DNA of 64,000 bases. Source: Fodinibius sediminis (GTDB lineage Bacteria; Bacteroidota; Rhodothermia; Balneolales; Balneolaceae). Of the stretch, positions 48,870 through 58,737 are shown piece after piece. Location of the stretch: assembly GCF_900182555.1 (NCBI RefSeq), contig NZ_FXTH01000006.1, forward strand, positions 124,001 to 188,000, read 5' to 3'. Numbering within the stretch: the first letter of the stretch is position 1; each line of letters begins with the position of its first letter. The notes beneath the pieces were generated by a model. It made no database searches and had not been told where the DNA came from. It saw only the letters and a program-made list of their open reading frames with translations. The position numbers and the translations under genes were made by a program.

Positions 48870-49523
48870 ATGATTAACTGGTTTAAGAGACGTCGCAAGA
48901 AGAAAACATCTTACGACACTAATGAAGAATGGGTCGAGGCGCTCAAGCCACCAGTGGATGAACGTGCCGTAGAGTTGTTGCGGGAACAGCTGGTCAGAGG
49001 ACTAAAACCAGCCCTGCACAAATATGTTGATCATGAACTCGATCAGTTTGTGGAAGATGTTGCCCAGGATGCCCTTTTGAAAGTGCTGGATAACATTGAT
49101 TCTTTCCGTGGTGACAGCAAACTTCTTACCTGGGCCATGAAAATTGCCGTTCGGGAAGGACTAACGGAACTCCGACTGAAACGCTATGATAATATCTCCA
49201 TTGAAGATTTGAAATCCAGAGACAGTGACACTGAGATACGCTCAATGAATGTCGCGGATAGCCAGCCTTCTCCCGACCGATCAGCGCACGAAGCACAGCT
49301 GATGGAGAAAATGATGACCATTATGGAGGAAGAGCTAACCAAAAAGCAAAAAATGGTCATTCAGGCCGTTGTAATAAATGGCCTGCCCCCGACAGTCGTG
49401 GCAAAGCAAATGGGAACCAACCGGAATGCGCTTTATAAAGTGATATATGATGCACGGCTAAAACTTAAAACCCGATTTGAATTGGATGGCATTGATCCTG
49501 ATGAAATGCTTAATAATATGTAA
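48870..49523 (+). CDS. ECF-type RNA polymerase sigma factor
   Basis: This 217-residue protein has sigma region 2 (about 60-115, FVEDVAQDALLKVLDNIDSF and LTWAMKIAVREGLTELR) and region 4 (about 150-205, TKKQKMVIQAVVINGLPPTV then AKQMGTNRNALYKVIYDARL). It has a highly basic N-terminus (FKRRRKKK). A Cys-rich small protein, probably its anti-sigma factor, is encoded 49 bp downstream. Neighbouring genes deal with thiols and metals, so the regulon may respond to redox or metal stress; this is inference. Confidence 0.92.
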   Translation: MINWFKRRRKKKTSYDTNEEWVEALKPPVDERAVELLREQLVRGLKPALHKYVDHELDQFVEDVAQDALLKVLDNIDSFRGDSKLLTWAMKIAVREGLTELRLKRYDNISIEDLKSRDSDTEIRSMNVADSQPSPDRSAHEAQLMEKMMTIMEEELTKKQKMVIQAVVINGLPPTVVAKQMGTNRNALYKVIYDARLKLKTRFELDGIDPDEMLNNM

Positions 49524-49572
49524 GAAATATCATGCTGGTCACATCTATAGTTAGAAAAGACAATATTTGGTT

Positions 49573-49815
49573 ATGAAATTAACGCCTGATTTTTTGAAAA
49601 AAATGATCCGCATGGTCAAGATGACCAAAACGGAGGAAATTGGCTGTGATGAATGCTATGATAAGCTCCATGAGTTTGCTGAAATGAAACTGGTTGGCAA
49701 ATCACCGGAAGAGGCCATGCCGTTGGTTAGTGATCATCTTGAACGCTGCGGCAGCTGCAGGGAAGAATATGAGGCTTTGCTGGAAGCGATGAAAGGTTTG
49801 GAAAAGACAGCCTGA
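49573..49815 (+). CDS. Zinc-finger-type anti-sigma factor (ZAS-like)
   Basis: This 80-residue protein, from the ATG at 49573 (a TTG 6 bp earlier is also open), has CDECYDKLHEFAEM and HLERCGSCREEYEALL. The H-x3-C-x2-C arrangement is typical of zinc-binding anti-sigma domains. It has no membrane segment, so it would act in the cytoplasm. It is probably co-transcribed with the ECF sigma gene upstream. Confidence 0.85.
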   Translation: MKLTPDFLKKMIRMVKMTKTEEIGCDECYDKLHEFAEMKLVGKSPEEAMPLVSDHLERCGSCREEYEALLEAMKGLEKTA

Positions 49816-49865: not shown

Positions 49866-51341
49866 TTATAGAATACGGTCCTTATTACTCAGGTCTGGAA
49901 TGCTGCCGCGGTAACCGAACAGCCATTTAATGAGCTTGATTTGCCACTCCGACTGATTTTTCACATACCATTGATCCGCCGCACGACGCACTCCCAAACC
50001 ATAGCTGGGGTAGGGATGGATAGTATCAGCTATATTTCGGAGTGTGACCCCGTTACGCATGGCCAGGGCATATTCACTGATCAGGTCTCCCGCCTGTCTG
50101 CCATAGATGGCAGCCCCTAATATTTTACCGGTCCATTTTTTGGCAAATATCTTTATCAGTCCGTCAGTAGCCTCATCGGTCCGTGCCCGGTCTATTTTTT
50201 CATAGGGAAACCTGTAGACCTCATATGTTGCTCCCTTGTCTTTAAGCTGCTTTTCAGTTGCTCCTACGTGCGCCAGCTCGGGATCGGTGTAAGTACTCCA
50301 CGTCAGGTGTTTGGTATCGATTTTCAGGGGCATTTTCAGCAAGGCATTGGTTGTAGCAATTTTTGCCATGTGTTCCGACATATGCGACAACTGGTACCGG
50401 CCCGTGACGTCACCTGCGGCATAAATATGGTTATGATTCGTACGGCAGCGGTCGTTAACCGTAATCCCTTTTTGGGTGTATTCGATCCCGGCCTTGTCCA
50501 GGGCAAGGCTGTTGTGATTAGCTACTCTGCCGGCAGCAACCAACAGGGCATCCCCCGTCCACACTTGTTCCTCACGTCCGACCTCCGCTGTTAGCTGAAC
50601 TTCTCCGCTGTCCGATTTGGATACCCTGGTGATAGAAGCGGAAAGTCTGAATGCGATCCCCTCTTTCACCAGGCGACTGTGCAGCATTCCGGCCAGTTCT
50701 TCATCATCATTAATGAGGATGCGGGGCTGCATATCAAACACCGTAACATGGGTACCCAGCCGTTGAAATGCCTGTGCCATTTCCATGCCGACCGGTCCCG
50801 CCCCGATGATGCCCAGCCTGCGGGGCTGCTCTTCAAGCTCAAAAATCGTTTCATTAGTGAGATATGGCATATCCTCAAGTCCCGGGACGGGCGGAGCCAC
50901 GGCCTTGCTGCCGGTTGCAATGATGATGTAGCGTGAGGATACCTGTTGATGCTTTTCACCGCTATCAATAGAAATGGTATGGGGATCCACAAAACGCGCT
51001 TTGCCGAATGTAACATCAACGCCCATGTTACGGAATATATGCGGATCATCAGCTTCACGGTAAACTTCTTCGCGTTTGGCGCGAACATGGTTCAAAATGG
51101 AAGAAAAATCCATCTGCTTTGCGGTCTTGTGACCAAATGTTTCCGCTTCTTTTACTTTTTGGGCGAGGCCCGCGGCATGAAGAAGTGTTTTACTGGGTAC
51201 GCAGCCGGTCCAGGTACAATCGCCGCCCAGTTTGTTTGCCTCAATTAGCAGCGTTTTGGCCCCAAAATTCACGCCCATACCTGCAGACGTAAGTCCAGCT
51301 GCACCGCCGCCAATTACAAGTAAATCATAGTCGTATTTCAT
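49866..51341 (-). CDS. Mercuric-reductase-like FAD/NAD(P) disulfide oxidoreductase
   Basis: This 491-residue protein has an FAD motif VIGGGAAGLTSAGMG, a redox pair in GGDCTWTGCVPSKTLLHAAG, a second nucleotide site GAGPVGMEMAQAFQRLG and the dimer-interface segment IHPYPSYGLGVRRAADQWY. It lacks the MerA C-terminal Cys pair and the N-terminal HMA domain, so the natural substrate is uncertain. It overlaps by 4 bp (ATGA) the small membrane protein gene upstream, so the two form one operon under the palindrome at 51683-51697. Confidence 0.9.
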   Translation of the reverse strand: MKYDYDLLVIGGGAAGLTSAGMGVNFGAKTLLIEANKLGGDCTWTGCVPSKTLLHAAGLAQKVKEAETFGHKTAKQMDFSSILNHVRAKREEVYREADDPHIFRNMGVDVTFGKARFVDPHTISIDSGEKHQQVSSRYIIIATGSKAVAPPVPGLEDMPYLTNETIFELEEQPRRLGIIGAGPVGMEMAQAFQRLGTHVTVFDMQPRILINDDEELAGMLHSRLVKEGIAFRLSASITRVSKSDSGEVQLTAEVGREEQVWTGDALLVAAGRVANHNSLALDKAGIEYTQKGITVNDRCRTNHNHIYAAGDVTGRYQLSHMSEHMAKIATTNALLKMPLKIDTKHLTWSTYTDPELAHVGATEKQLKDKGATYEVYRFPYEKIDRARTDEATDGLIKIFAKKWTGKILGAAIYGRQAGDLISEYALAMRNGVTLRNIADTIHPYPSYGLGVRRAADQWYVKNQSEWQIKLIKWLFGYRGSIPDLSNKDRIL

Positions 51342-51667: not shown

Positions 51668-52148
51668 TGAATATTTTACCTTGGCAACATTGTTGCCGTT
51701 ATGTATTGGATATCTCTGATGAACCGTGAATAAGATTTCTTACTTGCCGTACTTATATCCAAAATAAAAGCCGTTTTGCAAAAGCTGCCATCTCTGACGG
51801 ACAGAAAAAAATAATTTGTCAAAGTAAGACGACGGCAGGCAATCACATCACTCATAGTGAAATGGAGGTATTGTCACAAACTAAATGAACACAGAAAGAA
51901 ACAATAATGAATATTTTACATATATATAGATCAGGAAATGATGCGGCGTTATCAAACGTTTCTTTATTTATCGCACTTGACTTGATGACCGCATCCCAAC
52001 GTCAGCCCATAAATATAGAGAGTATGGGGGGATGAAGACCTGATTTATCTTATGCTGATTATCTGGAATGAGATCAAGAAAATCGGAATCACCTGGGGAG
52101 GAAATCGCGTGGGTTTATCAACACAGACCATTAAGAAGATTAAGCGGC
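51668..52148. other. Divergent intergenic region between the flavoprotein operon and the CMD gene
   Basis: About 480 bp. It holds the palindrome at 51683-51697 and A/T-rich sequence. A forward frame reaches 27 codons upstream of the CMD start at 52149 but has no family-like content. I see nothing else. Confidence 0.5.
51683..51697. promoter_or_regulatory. Palindrome GGCAACA-T-TGTTGCC, candidate operator
   Basis: A perfect 7-bp inverted repeat around one base lies 15 bp upstream of the leftward start at 51667. It is different from the other palindromes in the window and is placed to control the membrane-protein/flavoprotein operon. The regulator is unknown. Confidence 0.6.
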
Positions 52149-52709
52149 ATGGCATTTATCGACATTATTGAACCTGAAGATGCAACGGGTGAGCTCAGGG
52201 AAATATACGATAAGCTTGAAAAACAGCGGGGAAAACTGGCGCAGGTTCACAAAATCCAGAGCCTGAACCCGCCGACGATAACGGCGCACATGGACCTCTA
52301 CATGTCGGTTATGTTTAGCCAATCTCCCCTGGACAGAGCGCAGCGGGAGATGATGGCAGTGGTCGTTTCAGCTGCCAATAAGTGCGACTATTGCCAGCAG
52401 CATCACGGAGAAGCCCTCAACCACTACTGGAGGGATCGGGGCCGCATCAAGCAGCTTCAAGATGATTACCGCAAACTGGACCTCGACAATGTGAATGCCC
52501 GCCTTTGTCAATTGGCACAGGTCCTTACCAGGCACCCTGGTGGGGTGGATAAAGACAGGCACCTGCAACCCCTTAAAAATACCGGCCTCTCCGACCGGGC
52601 TATCCTCGATGCCGTTCTGGTTATCAGCTACTTTAACTTTGTGAATCGCATGGTCCTGGGATTGGGAGTTGAAACCAATGAAGAGGAGATGCAGGGATAT
52701 AAATATTAA
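52149..52709 (+). CDS. Peroxidase-related carboxymuconolactone decarboxylase-family protein
   Basis: This 186-residue protein, from the ATG at 52149, opens MAFIDIIEPEDATGELREIY, the usual start of peroxidase-related AhpD-like enzymes. The catalytic motif is CDYCQQHH (CxxC and His). The frame extends 27 codons further upstream but those residues are not family-like. It lies in a thiol/redox neighbourhood next to DUF302 and FMN reductase genes. Confidence 0.9.
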   Translation: MAFIDIIEPEDATGELREIYDKLEKQRGKLAQVHKIQSLNPPTITAHMDLYMSVMFSQSPLDRAQREMMAVVVSAANKCDYCQQHHGEALNHYWRDRGRIKQLQDDYRKLDLDNVNARLCQLAQVLTRHPGGVDKDRHLQPLKNTGLSDRAILDAVLVISYFNFVNRMVLGLGVETNEEEMQGYKY

Positions 52710-53425: not shown

Positions 53426-54181
53426 ATGGCTCTTTCAGAAAAACAAAGTCGGCTTTGCGAAGAGAACGAAACGGATTTTTCAAATTTAAGTGCTCTCTTC
53501 CTGAACTGTACGCTCAAACCAAATCCCAACGAGTCACATACCGAGACGCTGATCGAGGTATCGCAATCCATTTTTGAAAAGAATCAGGTCTCTACCGAAG
53601 TTATCCGTCCCGTGGACTGCAACATCGCTCCGGGCGTATATCCCGACATGACCGAACACGGCTTCGAGGAAGATGACTGGCCGGAGATCCAGCAAAAGGT
53701 CATGGATGCCAATATTTTAATTATTGGCTCTCCGATCTGGCTGGGTGAAAAATCTTCGGTCGCCACCAAGGTTATTGAGCGGCTGTATGGTTATTCCGGG
53801 AATCTCAATGAGAAGGGGCAATACGCCTATTACGGACGCGTCGGTGGATGCCTGATTACCGGCAACGAAGACGGCATCAAACACTGTTCGATGAGCATCC
53901 TCTACGGCCTGCAGCATCTGGGTTATGTTATTCCTCCCCAGGCTGATGCCGGATGGATCGGCGAAGCCGGTCCCGGCCCCAGTTACGGGGACGAAGGCGA
54001 AGACGGACCGGTTGGATTTGATAATGAATTCACCCAGCGCAATACCACCTTTATGACCTGGAACCTGATGCATATGGCCCGGATGCTCGATCAGTCCGGC
54101 GGGATACCAGCTCACGGGAACCAGCGGTCGGAGTGGGAGGCAGGCTGCCGGTTTGACCATCCCAACCCCGAGCATCGGTAG
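53426..54181 (+). CDS. NADPH-dependent FMN reductase / flavodoxin-like protein
   Basis: This 251-residue protein has the flavodoxin-like fold, with ALFLNCTLKPNPNESHTETL as the phosphate-binding start and ILIIGSPIWLGEKSSVATKV as the FMN-contact loop. It probably reduces flavin or quinones with NAD(P)H. It is encoded between the DUF302 gene and the EgtD homologue on the same strand, 46 bp before the latter. Confidence 0.88.
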   Translation: MALSEKQSRLCEENETDFSNLSALFLNCTLKPNPNESHTETLIEVSQSIFEKNQVSTEVIRPVDCNIAPGVYPDMTEHGFEEDDWPEIQQKVMDANILIIGSPIWLGEKSSVATKVIERLYGYSGNLNEKGQYAYYGRVGGCLITGNEDGIKHCSMSILYGLQHLGYVIPPQADAGWIGEAGPGPSYGDEGEDGPVGFDNEFTQRNTTFMTWNLMHMARMLDQSGGIPAHGNQRSEWEAGCRFDHPNPEHR

Positions 54182-54227: not shown

Positions 54228-55172
54228 ATGGATGATCACGTTACTTTGAGTTTTCCCAAAATGTTGGATGAGATTATTGAGGGATTAGAAAAGGATCAAA
54301 AAGAGTTGCCGAGCAAATACTTTTACGACCAACGGGGATCCCAGCTGTTTGAAGAAATCACCGAGCTCGAGGAGTATTATCCCACGCGGACTGAAATGCG
54401 TATTATGCAGGACAATATGCCTTATATTATACGAACCGTCGGCAGTGATATCATATTGGCGGAGCTGGGAAGCGGCAGCAGTAAGAAAACCCGTCTGCTG
54501 CTGGACCATTTTCCGAGCATCACTTCCTATATCCCGATAGAGATATCTGAGCAATATTTGGCAAAAGTCGTTCAGAAACTAAATCAGGAATACCCGGATT
54601 TACAAATAGAACCGCTCTGTACTGATTATTCTATGCCCTTTCAGCTTCCTGCCATCGCACAACCCTATAGCAAAATTGTTTTCTTTTACCCGGGTTCTAC
54701 TATTGGCAATTTTCAGCCATCTCAGGCCAAAGCATTTTTAAACAACCTTTCCACACAGCTGGACCCCGGAGATGGTATGCTTGTCGGGGTTGACCTGAAA
54801 AAGAATATCAGTGTATTGGAAACGGCTTATAATGACAGGCAGGGAGTGACGGCATCATTCAACAAAAATATACTCCGGCACATCAACCGTAAACTGGATG
54901 CCAATTTTAATCTAAACAATTTTCGCCACGAGGCCTTCTACAATAGAGATGAAGGGCGCATAGAAATGCATTTGGTTTCCAGAACGGATCAGACCGTAAC
55001 CATTGAAAAGGAGGTGTTCCATTTTAAACAGGGCGAATCCATTCACACCGAAAATTCCTATAAATACAGTCTGGCAGATTTTGAAACCCTGGTGAGCGAA
55101 TGGTTTTCTGTAGAAAAAGTATGGACCGACTCCGACCACTACTTTTCGCTTCAATATCTGCAGAAAATATAA
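54228..55172 (+). CDS. eanA: EgtD-like histidine N-alpha-methyltransferase (probable EanA)
   Basis: This 314-residue SAM-dependent methyltransferase has the EgtD motifs LPSKYFYDQRGSQLFEEI, EEYYPTRTE, the SAM loop AELGSGSSKKT (79-88), FFYPGSTIGNFQPSQA and TENSYKYSLADF. EgtD converts histidine to hercynine. The next gene, 57 bp downstream, encodes a three-domain rhodanese with the EanB catalytic set, and no EgtB-type gene is in the window. This is the EanA-EanB arrangement of the oxygen-independent ergothioneine pathway described in Chlorobium limicola. The symbol reflects that context. Confidence 0.9.
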   Translation: MDDHVTLSFPKMLDEIIEGLEKDQKELPSKYFYDQRGSQLFEEITELEEYYPTRTEMRIMQDNMPYIIRTVGSDIILAELGSGSSKKTRLLLDHFPSITSYIPIEISEQYLAKVVQKLNQEYPDLQIEPLCTDYSMPFQLPAIAQPYSKIVFFYPGSTIGNFQPSQAKAFLNNLSTQLDPGDGMLVGVDLKKNISVLETAYNDRQGVTASFNKNILRHINRKLDANFNLNNFRHEAFYNRDEGRIEMHLVSRTDQTVTIEKEVFHFKQGESIHTENSYKYSLADFETLVSEWFSVEKVWTDSDHYFSLQYLQKI

Positions 55173-55229
55173 TTCATATCGATTTAACAGCAGATGCCAT
55201 CCACATAATCAATTATCTGGTAACTACTC

Positions 55230-56786
55230 ATGAAAACCTTATCTACGAAAGAACTTATTTCTAAGCTTGAAGAATCTAATGCTCTCCTGATCGATGTTCG
55301 CCCCATTGCAGCTTACAATGGATGGACGCTTCAAAACGAGCAGCGTGGCGGGCATATCCCCGGTGCAAAAAGTATCCCCCTGCCGTGGACCCAGTATATG
55401 GACTGGATCGAGGTGCTGGAAGAGAAAAATATCAGCAGAGAACAGCCGGTTGTTGTATATGGATACGACAATGATGATGGTTGGCAGATGGACCAAAAAT
55501 TAGATGAGCTTGGTTTTCAACAGGTTATGATATATAATGATTTTATGGAGGAATGGACCGCCAATGCGGATCTGCCGTTGGATCAATTACCCCGCTACAG
55601 GCACCTGGTGTATCCGGAGTGGATAAAGCAGTTAATTGACGGTCAGCAACCACCTCATTACAATAATAATGACTACGTTGTGTGTCACTCCCATTACGAT
55701 CATATCGAAGATTATCACAGGGGACATATTCCGGGAGCTATTCCCTTAGACACCAACAGCCTGGAATCGACCGAAACCTGGAACCGCCGTACTCCTGAGG
55801 AACTTCGGGCAACCCTGGAAAATCTGGGTATTCGCCACGATACGACGGTCGTGATTTATGGGCGTTTTTCCGCTCCCGTGTATGATGAAGAAAAGTTTCC
55901 CGGCAAAAGCGCCGGACATCTTGGCGCCCTGCGGTGTGCAGCTATTATGCTGTATGCGGGCGTGGAGGATATCAGGATACTAAACGGCGGTATCACAAGC
56001 TGGGAGGCAGAAGGATACGAGCTTTCAACGGAACAGCATGAGCCCACTCCTGTTGATGGTTTTGGCACAGCTGTTCCCGCCCGTCCCGAGTATATGATTG
56101 ATACGCCGGAAGCCAAACAACTGCTGAAGTCAAATGAAGGAGAGCTGGTCAGTATTAGAAGCTGGGAGGAGTTTATCGGCAACCGCAGCGGTTATCATTA
56201 TATTGAAAAGAAGGGACGAATTCCTGGTGCGACTTTTGGCAACTGCGGAAGCGACGCCTATCACATGGAAAATTATCGCAACTTTGACCATACCATGCGG
56301 GAATACCGGGAAATAGCATCGGCCTGGAAAGAAGGCGGTATAACGCCCGACAAACATGTCGCTTTTTATTGCGGGACCGGCTGGCGCGGAAGCGAAGCCT
56401 TTATAAACGCCTGGTTAATGGAATGGCCTAAGATCTCGGTCTACGACGGGGGTTGGTTTGAATGGTGCAACGACCCGGAAAATCCTATCGAGAGTGGAAG
56501 GCCTGATCATTTGGCAATAAAAGGGGGGGTAAATAAAAAAAGGATAAAGGAGCACTCCTTTATCCCTTCCAGTTTAGAACTACGTTGTTCAGGCCCCAAC
56601 AGCTTCGGTCGATTTTTTAATAGCATTACCTTTAAAGGCATAGAGCAGCGACACGGCTATAATAAGTACCTGAAACTCCATTCCTCGTCCACCGTTGTTG
56701 CCCATATTTATAGAATTCCAGCCAAATTGGGCATGCACCATCGCGATGGCACCGACCATAATCACCGTGAAAATAAGGCCGGATAG
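55230..56786 (+). CDS. eanB: Three-domain rhodanese, probable EanB hercynine sulfurtransferase, with 3' stop apparently lost
   Basis: Three rhodanese domains are visible (about 1-125, 130-275, 285-430). Only the third has an active-site Cys, C381 in AFYCGTGWRGSEA. With a constant offset of 31, C381, Y380, T383, Y322 and C339 correspond to EanB C412, Y411, T414, Y353 and C370, as I recall them. EanB transfers sulfur from polysulfide to hercynine, giving ergothioneine. As read, the frame passes a G7 run (56523-56529) and continues 85 codons across a terminator and antisense to the DoxX gene. With six Gs, TAA would end it near residue 433, after AIKGG. Confidence 0.88.
   Translation: MKTLSTKELISKLEESNALLIDVRPIAAYNGWTLQNEQRGGHIPGAKSIPLPWTQYMDWIEVLEEKNISREQPVVVYGYDNDDGWQMDQKLDELGFQQVMIYNDFMEEWTANADLPLDQLPRYRHLVYPEWIKQLIDGQQPPHYNNNDYVVCHSHYDHIEDYHRGHIPGAIPLDTNSLESTETWNRRTPEELRATLENLGIRHDTTVVIYGRFSAPVYDEEKFPGKSAGHLGALRCAAIMLYAGVEDIRILNGGITSWEAEGYELSTEQHEPTPVDGFGTAVPARPEYMIDTPEAKQLLKSNEGELVSIRSWEEFIGNRSGYHYIEKKGRIPGATFGNCGSDAYHMENYRNFDHTMREYREIASAWKEGGITPDKHVAFYCGTGWRGSEAFINAWLMEWPKISVYDGGWFEWCNDPENPIESGRPDHLAIKGGVNKKRIKEHSFIPSSLELRCSGPNSFGRFFNSITFKGIEQRHGYNKYLKLHSSSTVVAHIYRIPAKLGMHHRDGTDHNHRENKAG
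56542..56565 (-). terminator. Terminator between the rhodanese and DoxX genes
   Basis: GGATAAAGGA and TCCTTTATCC form a 10-bp stem with a GCAC loop. Read leftward it ends in a run of seven U, so it terminates the DoxX transcript. It lies inside the extended rhodanese frame, which is further evidence that the real rhodanese stop is just upstream. Confidence 0.85.
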
Positions 56787-57008
56787 TCGTGTTGCCCAGT
56801 CCGGGCCAACTCCACCCCACAGCATTAGCAGCGCGCCACCTATTTCAGCAACTCCAAGCAGTAATACCATTATAAATGGCATGCCCATCATCGCTGACAC
56901 ATCTCCTGCCATAGCTACTTTGGGAAACCCATGATAAATAAAGATTGCTGCTAACGATAATCGTGGCAACCAGTGTGCTATTCCCGAAAGTTTATTTAAT
57001 TGATCCAT
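56589..57008 (-). CDS. DoxX-family membrane protein
   Basis: This 139-residue protein has four helices and the DoxX motif HWLPRLSLAAIFIYHGFPKV. DoxX-like proteins act with quinone-linked or thiol-linked redox partners. The thiosulfate:quinone oxidoreductase of Acidianus contains DoxD/DoxA, which is a distant relation. It is encoded antisense to the tail of the extended rhodanese frame and may be co-transcribed with ccdA-like and tlpA-like genes upstream (69 bp gap). Confidence 0.88.
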   Translation of the reverse strand: MDQLNKLSGIAHWLPRLSLAAIFIYHGFPKVAMAGDVSAMMGMPFIMVLLLGVAEIGGALLMLWGGVGPDWATRLSGLIFTVIMVGAIAMVHAQFGWNSINMGNNGGRGMEFQVLIIAVSLLYAFKGNAIKKSTEAVGA

Positions 57009-57077
57009 ATGTAGGTCCTGATCTTTAATAGTTATGAGTTACACCTATTGATGCTGACAAATCAACCTATCTTACGT

Positions 57078-57746
57078 TTAAAGCAATGCGGTCTGATAAT
57101 AGATAACATAAGCTCCGGCTACCATTAGTAATCCACCGGTAATGCGTTCCATATGCGGAAGAATCTTATGCAGATATTTCTTAAGCCAATTTTTAGCAAA
57201 GGTGGAAAGCAAAATGGTTCCGATCATCATCCCGCTGATGCCCACAAAATAGGCTCCAATATACGAAGCGCCCAGCCAGAGGGTTGGGGCAGCCATGGCC
57301 TGTGTGGCAACCACCAGGAATAAGGGAAACAAGCAACCCAAGGCCCCAATGGCATAGGCCATTCCAAATACAAGTGCTTCGGCTGCTTCTGTTTGATGAG
57401 TGGGATTATTCATGTTGATGGAGAACGAGAGATCTTTTCCTGCTACCATAAAAAGCCCCATCCCAATCAATACAGCACCCATCCCCATGGCAATCCATTT
57501 CATGTATGCCTTGAGTACCTGCGCGGCTGCGATAATAAATCCACCGGCCAGGGCATATACCATCAGAATTCCCAGTATACTTAAAAATGCCAGCTTTAAT
57601 CCTCGGTACAGGCGCCTTCCTATCGCAGGATCATCCTGCGAGTTACGCGAGATGAAAGCAACAATGTATCCGGGCAATAGTGCCACGGCACAGGGAGCCA
57701 AGAAGGCAAAAACCCCTTGTATAAAGGAAAAATAGACAAACTCCAT
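57078..57746 (-). CDS. CcdA/DsbD-type thiol-disulfide membrane protein
   Basis: This 222-residue protein has six helices and the CcdA pattern FLAPCAVALLPGYIVAF (Cys19) with a second conserved Cys near 137 in ALGCLFPLF. CcdA passes electrons from cytoplasmic thioredoxin across the membrane to periplasmic thioredoxin-like proteins. The TlpA-like gene upstream ends 2 bp before its start, so they are coupled and likely partners. Confidence 0.9.
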   Translation of the reverse strand: MEFVYFSFIQGVFAFLAPCAVALLPGYIVAFISRNSQDDPAIGRRLYRGLKLAFLSILGILMVYALAGGFIIAAAQVLKAYMKWIAMGMGAVLIGMGLFMVAGKDLSFSINMNNPTHQTEAAEALVFGMAYAIGALGCLFPLFLVVATQAMAAPTLWLGASYIGAYFVGISGMMIGTILLSTFAKNWLKKYLHKILPHMERITGGLLMVAGAYVIYYQTALL

Positions 57747-57748
57747 AC

Positions 57749-58291
57749 TTACTGACCCACTAACCGGTCAAAAAGCTTCCGGTATTCTTTTTCACTGAGA
57801 GCGGTCTTATTTTTCTGGAAAGCAATTTTGCCATCACGGTTGATGCCTACTGTTGTAGCCTGGCTTTCGACCCCAAAGTCTACCATAATCTGTGGATGTC
57901 CCCAGGTAGTGGGAAATGTAAAGCCTTTTTCCCTGGCCAATCTGGTCATAACCTCTCTGGTGTCGGTGGGATCTATCCCTATGGCTACAAAATCCAGTTC
58001 ATCTTTATAATCGGGATACACCTCGGAAAGCACCGGCCAGTTTTTAGCACAAACAGGACACCAGGAAGCGGTAAAATAGACGACCATCGGTTTGTTTTCG
58101 CTCATCGTTGTTTGCAGGCTAACCGTATCGCCCTGGAGGGTTTCAACCTCGAAATTTGGCGCTTTTCTAAGCTCATCCGACCTGCTGATGGCCGTATTTT
58201 CTGTTGTAGGTTCTGAATCTTCGGCAGAGCAGGCTCCCAAAAAAAGTAACACCATAAGAAGAGCGGCAATACTAATGTCATTCCTTGTCAT
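57749..58291 (-). CDS. TlpA-like thioredoxin-fold lipoprotein
   Basis: This 180-residue protein, from the ATG at 58291, has a lipoprotein signal (LLMVLLFLGAC, C21) and an AhpC/TSA-thioredoxin fold with the active site WCPVC (Cys78, Cys81). The ORF is open 18 codons further upstream, but that extension disrupts the signal. It probably reduces periplasmic disulfides, fed with electrons by the adjacent CcdA-like protein. Confidence 0.9.
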   Translation of the reverse strand: MTRNDISIAALLMVLLFLGACSAEDSEPTTENTAISRSDELRKAPNFEVETLQGDTVSLQTTMSENKPMVVYFTASWCPVCAKNWPVLSEVYPDYKDELDFVAIGIDPTDTREVMTRLAREKGFTFPTTWGHPQIMVDFGVESQATTVGINRDGKIAFQKNKTALSEKEYRKLFDRLVGQ

Positions 58292-58737
58292 ATTATTTCT
58301 TGGCCTAAAAATTTTAACGGTTATTTCATTCATTAGAGTAGGCACCGGGCGAAGATCTTACGAGAAAATCACAGGCTATTTTTGATTGAAGAGTTATCAG
58401 CCCAATGCAGAAGCTTCATCATGGCTTGAATGCGGAGAATCTCAATTTAAAGTCATTAATATTGAATCACGGCTGAATCTGTGCTTCTGAGTGGGTTGAA
58501 AAACAGGGAGACTTGTATGATGCCCTGGAACCAACTTTATTTTTTTTGGGAGAACAATATTCCCTGAACATTGTATATGTGTATTGAGGATGACTCACAA
58601 AAACATCTCATAAAGAATGCTGTTCCGGATTTCCTTGCCTATGGGTTTACCTGAGTTTCAACGGTTCAAAGATTCAGTTAAGGAAGTGGAGCCCGGATTT
58701 TAACTGACAGTTATGCCCGCTTTGCGGTAAATTTCAT
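58292..58737. other. Divergent intergenic region
   Basis: About 445 bp between the leftward TlpA-like gene and the rightward lipoprotein gene. Short frames only, no strong hairpin, no recognised motif. Confidence 0.5.

Follow-up and report, generated by a model that had tools for sequence, protein, structure and literature searches.

Gene content of the locus

The analysed window comprises 64,000 nucleotides (contig C6, 124001-188000) of the 4.43 Mb genome of Fodinibius sediminis, a halophilic member of the Balneolaceae (class Rhodothermia). On its plus strand a methyltransferase gene is followed, after a gap of 57 bp, by the gene for a three-domain rhodanese, an arrangement described in the first-pass annotation and confirmed here by the open reading frames, their coordinates and three PF00581 stretches within the rhodanese. 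The pair and the features around it are the following.

49866..51341, minus strand: FAD disulfide-reductase-like gene (PF07992, PF02852; cluster c3, in 5 of 21 neighbourhoods)
52068..52709, plus strand: AhpD-like peroxidase-related gene (TIGR01926, 129 bits; cluster c4, in 5 of 21 neighbourhoods)
53426..54181, plus strand: NADPH-dependent FMN reductase-like gene, upstream of egtD (PF03358; cluster c5)
54228..55172, plus strand: egtD, histidine N-alpha-methyltransferase (314 aa), predicted first step from histidine to hercynine (TIGR03438, PF10017)
55230..56504, plus strand: eanB, three-domain rhodanese, ergothioneine synthase by homology to Chlorobium limicola EanB, conserved part, codons 1-425
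56505..56786, plus strand: tail of the eanB open frame, 93 codons plus stop, absent from the 11 relatives compared, antisense into doxX
56537..56570, no strand assigned: 15-pair hairpin inside the tail, between the convergent eanB and doxX (terminator scan, listed on the minus strand)

The methyltransferase scores 400.5 bits against the TIGR03438 egtD model (cut-off 290.9) and matches PF10017 at E 9e-112; no other protein of the genome matches PF10017, which leaves this gene as the sole egtD. All eight of the M. smegmatis EgtD substrate-site residues that were checked (Y39, Y56, G161, N166, Y206, M252, E282 and S284) have their equivalents here. The absence of EgtB, previously noted for the window, extends to the whole genome, in which no TIGR03440 match scores above 69.1 bits (cut-off 360); a genome-wide search for egtB and for a second egtD thus returned no egtB and a single egtD.

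The downstream open frame (55230-56786) had been taken as eanB over its entire length, which does not hold: homology to EanB ends at residue 425 (56504), and the 11 relatives read stop close to the equivalent point, from 2 codons short of it to 15 codons past it. Relative to A. salipaludis, a small indel beside G7 and A7 runs removes the eanB stop in the window, and the tail, which lies outside the enzyme proper, is probably either read-through after this indel or a sequencing error; if real, the extension past codon 425 could be harmful to the protein. That eanB is decaying, the loss of its stop having added the 93-residue tail to an enzyme that no longer functions, appears extremely unlikely: in its favour, none of the 11 relatives runs more than 15 codons past the end of homology and the window frame continues antisense into doxX, but codons 1-425 are open, the conserved catalytic residues are present, and a homopolymer error of one or two bases at G7/A7 would account for the tail. 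The hairpin inside the tail is a possible bidirectional terminator; five terminator-like sites were found in the region against a shuffle mean of 4.2, which makes the listing weak on its own. A promoter scan of the same region was uninformative (10 found, 6.4 expected).

Among the 21 egtD/eanB neighbourhoods compared, the FMN reductase-like cluster c5 occurs in five, including that of G120, a genome of another family. Positions 48870-49815 of the window hold an ECF sigma factor gene and then the gene of an 82-aa HxxxCxxC protein without a family match, which we take to be zinc anti-sigma-like. Near eanB, an ECF sigma factor occurs in 8 and the small protein in 4 of the 21 neighbourhoods, and control of the eanB locus by thiol stress is possible. 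On the minus strand, convergent with eanB (56589-58345), lie the genes of a DoxX-like protein, of a membrane protein that matches no family but by eye resembles CcdA, and of a TlpA/ResA-like thioredoxin, the last two being found in 4 of the 21 neighbourhoods.

The rhodanese compared with EanB and YnjE

The EanB of C. limicola (Clim_1149; PDB 6h98, 6ktv) and its proposed mechanisms are known, as set out in a published account (PMC10903977). The first-pass annotation had assigned the window rhodanese to this enzyme, citing five residues (Y322, C339, Y380, C381 and T383), and all five align as claimed: together with R386 they correspond to Y353, C370, Y411, C412, T414 and R417 of EanB, whose numbering was anchored on the PDB mutant entries Y353F, T414A, T414V, C412S and C339A/C370A. 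The active-site residues are accordingly Cys381 (C412) and Tyr322 (Y353), and a review states that, of the five cysteines of EanB, only Cys412 is needed and that Tyr353 and Thr414 mutants lose the product (PMC9103826). The alignment stands, but its force is limited: E. coli YnjE has the EanB residue at Y353, Y411, C412, T414 and R417 and an alanine at C370, and only C370 among the five residues separates the two proteins. The residue argument alone is therefore weak, and the five residues were rejected as proof of EanB.

Over residues 4-425 the window rhodanese matches C. limicola EanB at E 6e-157 in the PDB sequence comparison, with 52.5% identity (221/421), as against 39.7% identity, over nearly the full length, with E. 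coli YnjE; its nearest named relatives are proteins of Aliifodinibius/Fodinibius, within the Balneolaceae. In 92 aligned EanB rows, Y353, C412, T414 and R417 are invariant, Y411 is found in 91 and C370 in 90, and every one of the 92 carries a domain-2 insert of some 16 residues, which the one YnjE compared lacks. As far as these sequences go, C370 and the domain-2 insert are the features that separate EanB from YnjE, and the window protein carries both. Furthermore, an AlphaFold model built on a 34-row alignment (pLDDT 89.3; the single-sequence fold was poor, pLDDT 41.5) gives a TM score of 0.96 and a Z of about 54 against EanB 6ktv/6h98, compared with TM 0.85-0.86 and a Z of about 46 against YnjE. 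One difference from the C. limicola enzyme, beyond overall identity, is that its Cys339 corresponds to a serine in the window protein.

The EanB tree was rejected as proof of EanB against YnjE; its lone YnjE row sits on a branch of 6.68, so the tree cannot test the distinction, and identity, markers and fold were used instead. At 261 aa, the two-domain rhodanese of the window's genome (L006/L011) was too short for this tree and was left out. By identity, insert, C370 and fold, although not by the tree, the window rhodanese sides with EanB and not with YnjE or the two-domain rhodaneses, and its separation from ordinary sulfurtransferases, on which the earlier assignment depended, is borne out. 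These same comparisons bear on the alternative that the protein is a YnjE-like general sulfurtransferase, serving for example molybdopterin or thiosulfate, that lies beside egtD by chance. YnjE shares with it three domains, the catalytic loop and nearly full-length similarity, but every one of the four measures is nearer EanB, and the alternative is very unlikely.

Distribution of EanB and EgtB and the native locus

Searches of 244 genomes of the class, at E 1e-40 for EanB, E 1e-80 for EgtB and E 1e-20 for EgtD, found EanB in 26 genomes (weakest match 551 bits, 56% identity), EgtB in 106 (104 over the cut-off) and EgtD in 138 (133 over the cut-off). EanB and EgtB never occur together (0 of 244); EgtD is present in all 26 EanB genomes and in 104 of the 106 with EgtB, and 8 of the 138 EgtD genomes have neither. 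The exclusion among EgtD genomes of the class corresponds to a Fisher p of 2e-21 with kinship ignored. A set of 58 relatives includes 13 with EanB, 18 with EgtB over the cut-off, none with both and 31 with EgtD over the cut-off, and the window's genus, represented by 12 genomes, divides into 10 with EanB and 2 with EgtB.

A universal exclusion was rejected, however, on the evidence of a phylum sample of 395 genomes, in which EanB is found in 18 and EgtB in 112, and two genomes (G309 and G331) carry both, as against 5.1 expected (P 0.07). Six of these 18 EanB genomes lie outside the class, G309 and G331 among them; four of the six have a methyltransferase directly beside eanB and no EgtB. In G309 and G331 (L269-L272), an egtB-egtD pair lies elsewhere in the genome, and the surroundings of EanB, out to about 5 kb, yielded no methyltransferase. 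An EanB-like protein can thus coexist with EgtB, and these two genomes may represent intermediates or EanB put to another use.

At the level of gene order, a methyltransferase lies within 3 kb in 36 of the 80 named EanB loci (27 downstream, 7 upstream, one of these the broken A. salipaludis copy, 1 opposite and 1 fused); the other 44 have none nearby, 19 of them with less than 1.5 kb of contig on one side. A natural fusion is found in a Bacteroidales genome (L072, 5983-8229), as one 749-codon frame with EanB first. Such a fusion, the presence of EgtD and absence of EgtB in every EanB genome found in the class, and the loss of egtB where eanB occurs all weigh further against a YnjE-like sulfurtransferase and for an EanB acting with EgtD.

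The loss of egtB can be followed at its native locus by means of C2, an 83-residue gene without a Pfam match. C2 directly precedes egtB-egtD in 8 of the 10 EgtB genomes of the family that were checked (G006, G007, G013, G020, G021, G028, G034 and G064) and is missing before egtB in the remaining two (G029 and G101, of one genus); beside the EgtB loci checked outside the family it was not found. All eight eanB genomes that keep egtD at the native locus (G001-G005 and G008-G010) have lost egtB there, C2 being followed by egtD, and G004 and G008 share their upstream genes with G006 and G007. The 256-bp gap between C2 and egtD in G009 retains an egtB fossil, 79% identical to the egtB of G006 over 101 bp (E 3e-20), with a second stretch near the 3' end (78% over 60 bp); its protein pieces correspond to residues 197-226, 217-230 and 415-432, in order and in two frames, and the best of them scores 41.2 bits, where 500 base shuffles gave no more than 26.2. 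No clear egtB remnant was found in the other seven C2-egtD gaps.

Five further eanB genomes (G000, which is the window's, together with G011, G024, G012 and G022) all have C2 with neither egtB nor egtD alongside, and no remnant of either gene was detected beside it at E 0.1; egtD lies beside eanB in G000, G011, G012 and G024 and elsewhere in G022. The disappearance of egtB from the native locus of eanB genomes, together with the class-wide exclusion, supports the conclusion that EanB replaced the oxygen-dependent EgtB in the window's genus. On a quick EgtD tree with a weak backbone, the minimum number of switches between EgtB and EanB is 8 over 76 rows (53 EgtB and 23 EanB, with G004 counted twice and three rows with neither dropped).

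Partner methyltransferase and proposed pathway

The earlier reading of the pair as EanA and EanB stands for the rhodanese; the methyltransferase, by the best trees, is better called EgtD. In a 111-row tree (4 of 114 distinct sequences, shorter than 230 aa, dropped; C. limicola EanA not in the set), the window methyltransferase falls among the EgtDs of the Rhodothermia (80 rows, SH-aLRT 98), separate from 30 of the 31 eanB-adjacent methyltransferases of other groups. A 41-row IQ-TREE analysis groups it with those of G004, G011, G013 and G021 (SH-aLRT 98.7, bootstrap 100), of which G013 and G021 are EgtB genomes, and its highest identity is 58.6% among the EgtDs of EgtB genomes and 44.3% among eanB-adjacent EanAs. 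Trees that place EanA clades next to it were not rejected by AU tests (p 0.28-0.43; 0.28, 0.50 and 0.59 in other runs), which are weak here because they mainly move long EanA branches. These comparisons favour the family's own EgtD over the EanA of eanB-eanA operons, and the name EanA is not favoured. The window gene would thereby belong to the same EgtD group as the Balneolaceae egtB-egtD operons, adjoining eanB instead of egtB, and would differ in lineage from the eanB-linked EanAs that partner EanB of the C. limicola kind.

Both a native and an eanB-linked egtD are present in G004. In G002 (A. salipaludis), the native egtD is intact and the linked copy lacks its first half, having been fused in frame to an AhpD-like gene by a deletion (L033, 4901-6001); eanB was thus kept as its neighbour decayed. 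A second, distinct EanB in G004 (L237, L239) is 69% identical to that of the window, at a locus common to G008; a TAG within the match is its own stop, two codons before the match ends. The trees did not demonstrate separate EanB origins in the Balneolaceae and the Salinibacter-like family, a single clade being compatible with the data (AU 0.85).

In the proposed pathway, EgtD would trimethylate histidine with SAM to hercynine, as its family and site residues indicate. By analogy with EanB, sulfane sulfur from polysulfide or a cellular persulfide would then form a persulfide on Cys381, Tyr322 would act as acid/base and protonate the imidazole of hercynine, and the sulfur would pass to C2, whereupon ergothioneine would leave. 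From the ancestral C2-egtB-egtD locus, egtB was lost and, in the window's species, egtD as well, so that the gene beside eanB is the only egtD. If expressed, the window pair is very likely to synthesise the antioxidant ergothioneine independently of oxygen. We hold with considerable confidence that EgtD and EanB constitute a two-step, oxygen-independent ergothioneine pathway in which EanB has replaced EgtB within the genus. The earlier interpretation of the pair is thus supported, comparative genomics providing stronger evidence for it than the residues, and ergothioneine is its presumed product.

A product other than ergothioneine, formed from hercynine or a related imidazole, is highly improbable. 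Some EanB-like enzymes may sulfurate other heterocycles, according to a published study (PMC9516567), and the two genomes outside the class with both EanB and EgtB would fit this; against it stand the intact EgtD site residues among those checked, main active-site residues identical to those of C. limicola EanB, and the replacement of EgtB, which suggests the same product.

An eanB system of Salinibacter ruber was reportedly described by Burn in 2017. Genome G196, which we take to be S. ruber, encodes EgtD and EanB and no EgtB; it differs from the window's genome in that egtD is not adjacent to eanB, and its EanB is 63% identical to the window's. Ergothioneine and eanA/eanB-like genes are reported for S. 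ruber, of the same class, in one publication (PMC11993508), and the species is given as strictly aerobic in another (PMC6508672); EanB in an aerobe of the class is therefore not new. EanB homologues occur mostly in anaerobes according to PMC9516567. The window's genus, unlike C. limicola, has strictly aerobic members: PMC9909488 describes some Fodinibius as strict aerobes and others as facultative, and PMC12260241 gives F. alkaliphilus as strictly aerobic. Another oxygen-independent ergothioneine synthase, MES of Caldithrix abyssi, has no relation to EanB; it is a molybdopterin enzyme that carries a cysteine desulfurase module (PMC9516567).

The chemistry of the pathway is already known, and the addition is the displacement of EgtB by EanB, of which no published description was found in the open-access literature searched. 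Chances are about even that, among oxygen-respiring halophiles, EanB has repeatedly taken the place of EgtB alongside a resident EgtD. Why the exchange took place is a matter of speculation; the poor solubility of oxygen in brine, or plentiful persulfide, could have driven it.

Here it can be read directly how, within a single genus, an ergothioneine synthase gave way to one whose chemistry is unrelated, and in one species the remains of the old gene persist at the native locus. PMC9516567 raises the question of why the sulfur step arose anew on a shared methyltransferase, and proposes an anaerobic pathway that EgtB later supplanted; the direction of replacement here is opposite to that suggestion. 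Moreover, cultured and named species with EanB (F. roseus, F. halophilus and F. salipaludis) make the idea testable.
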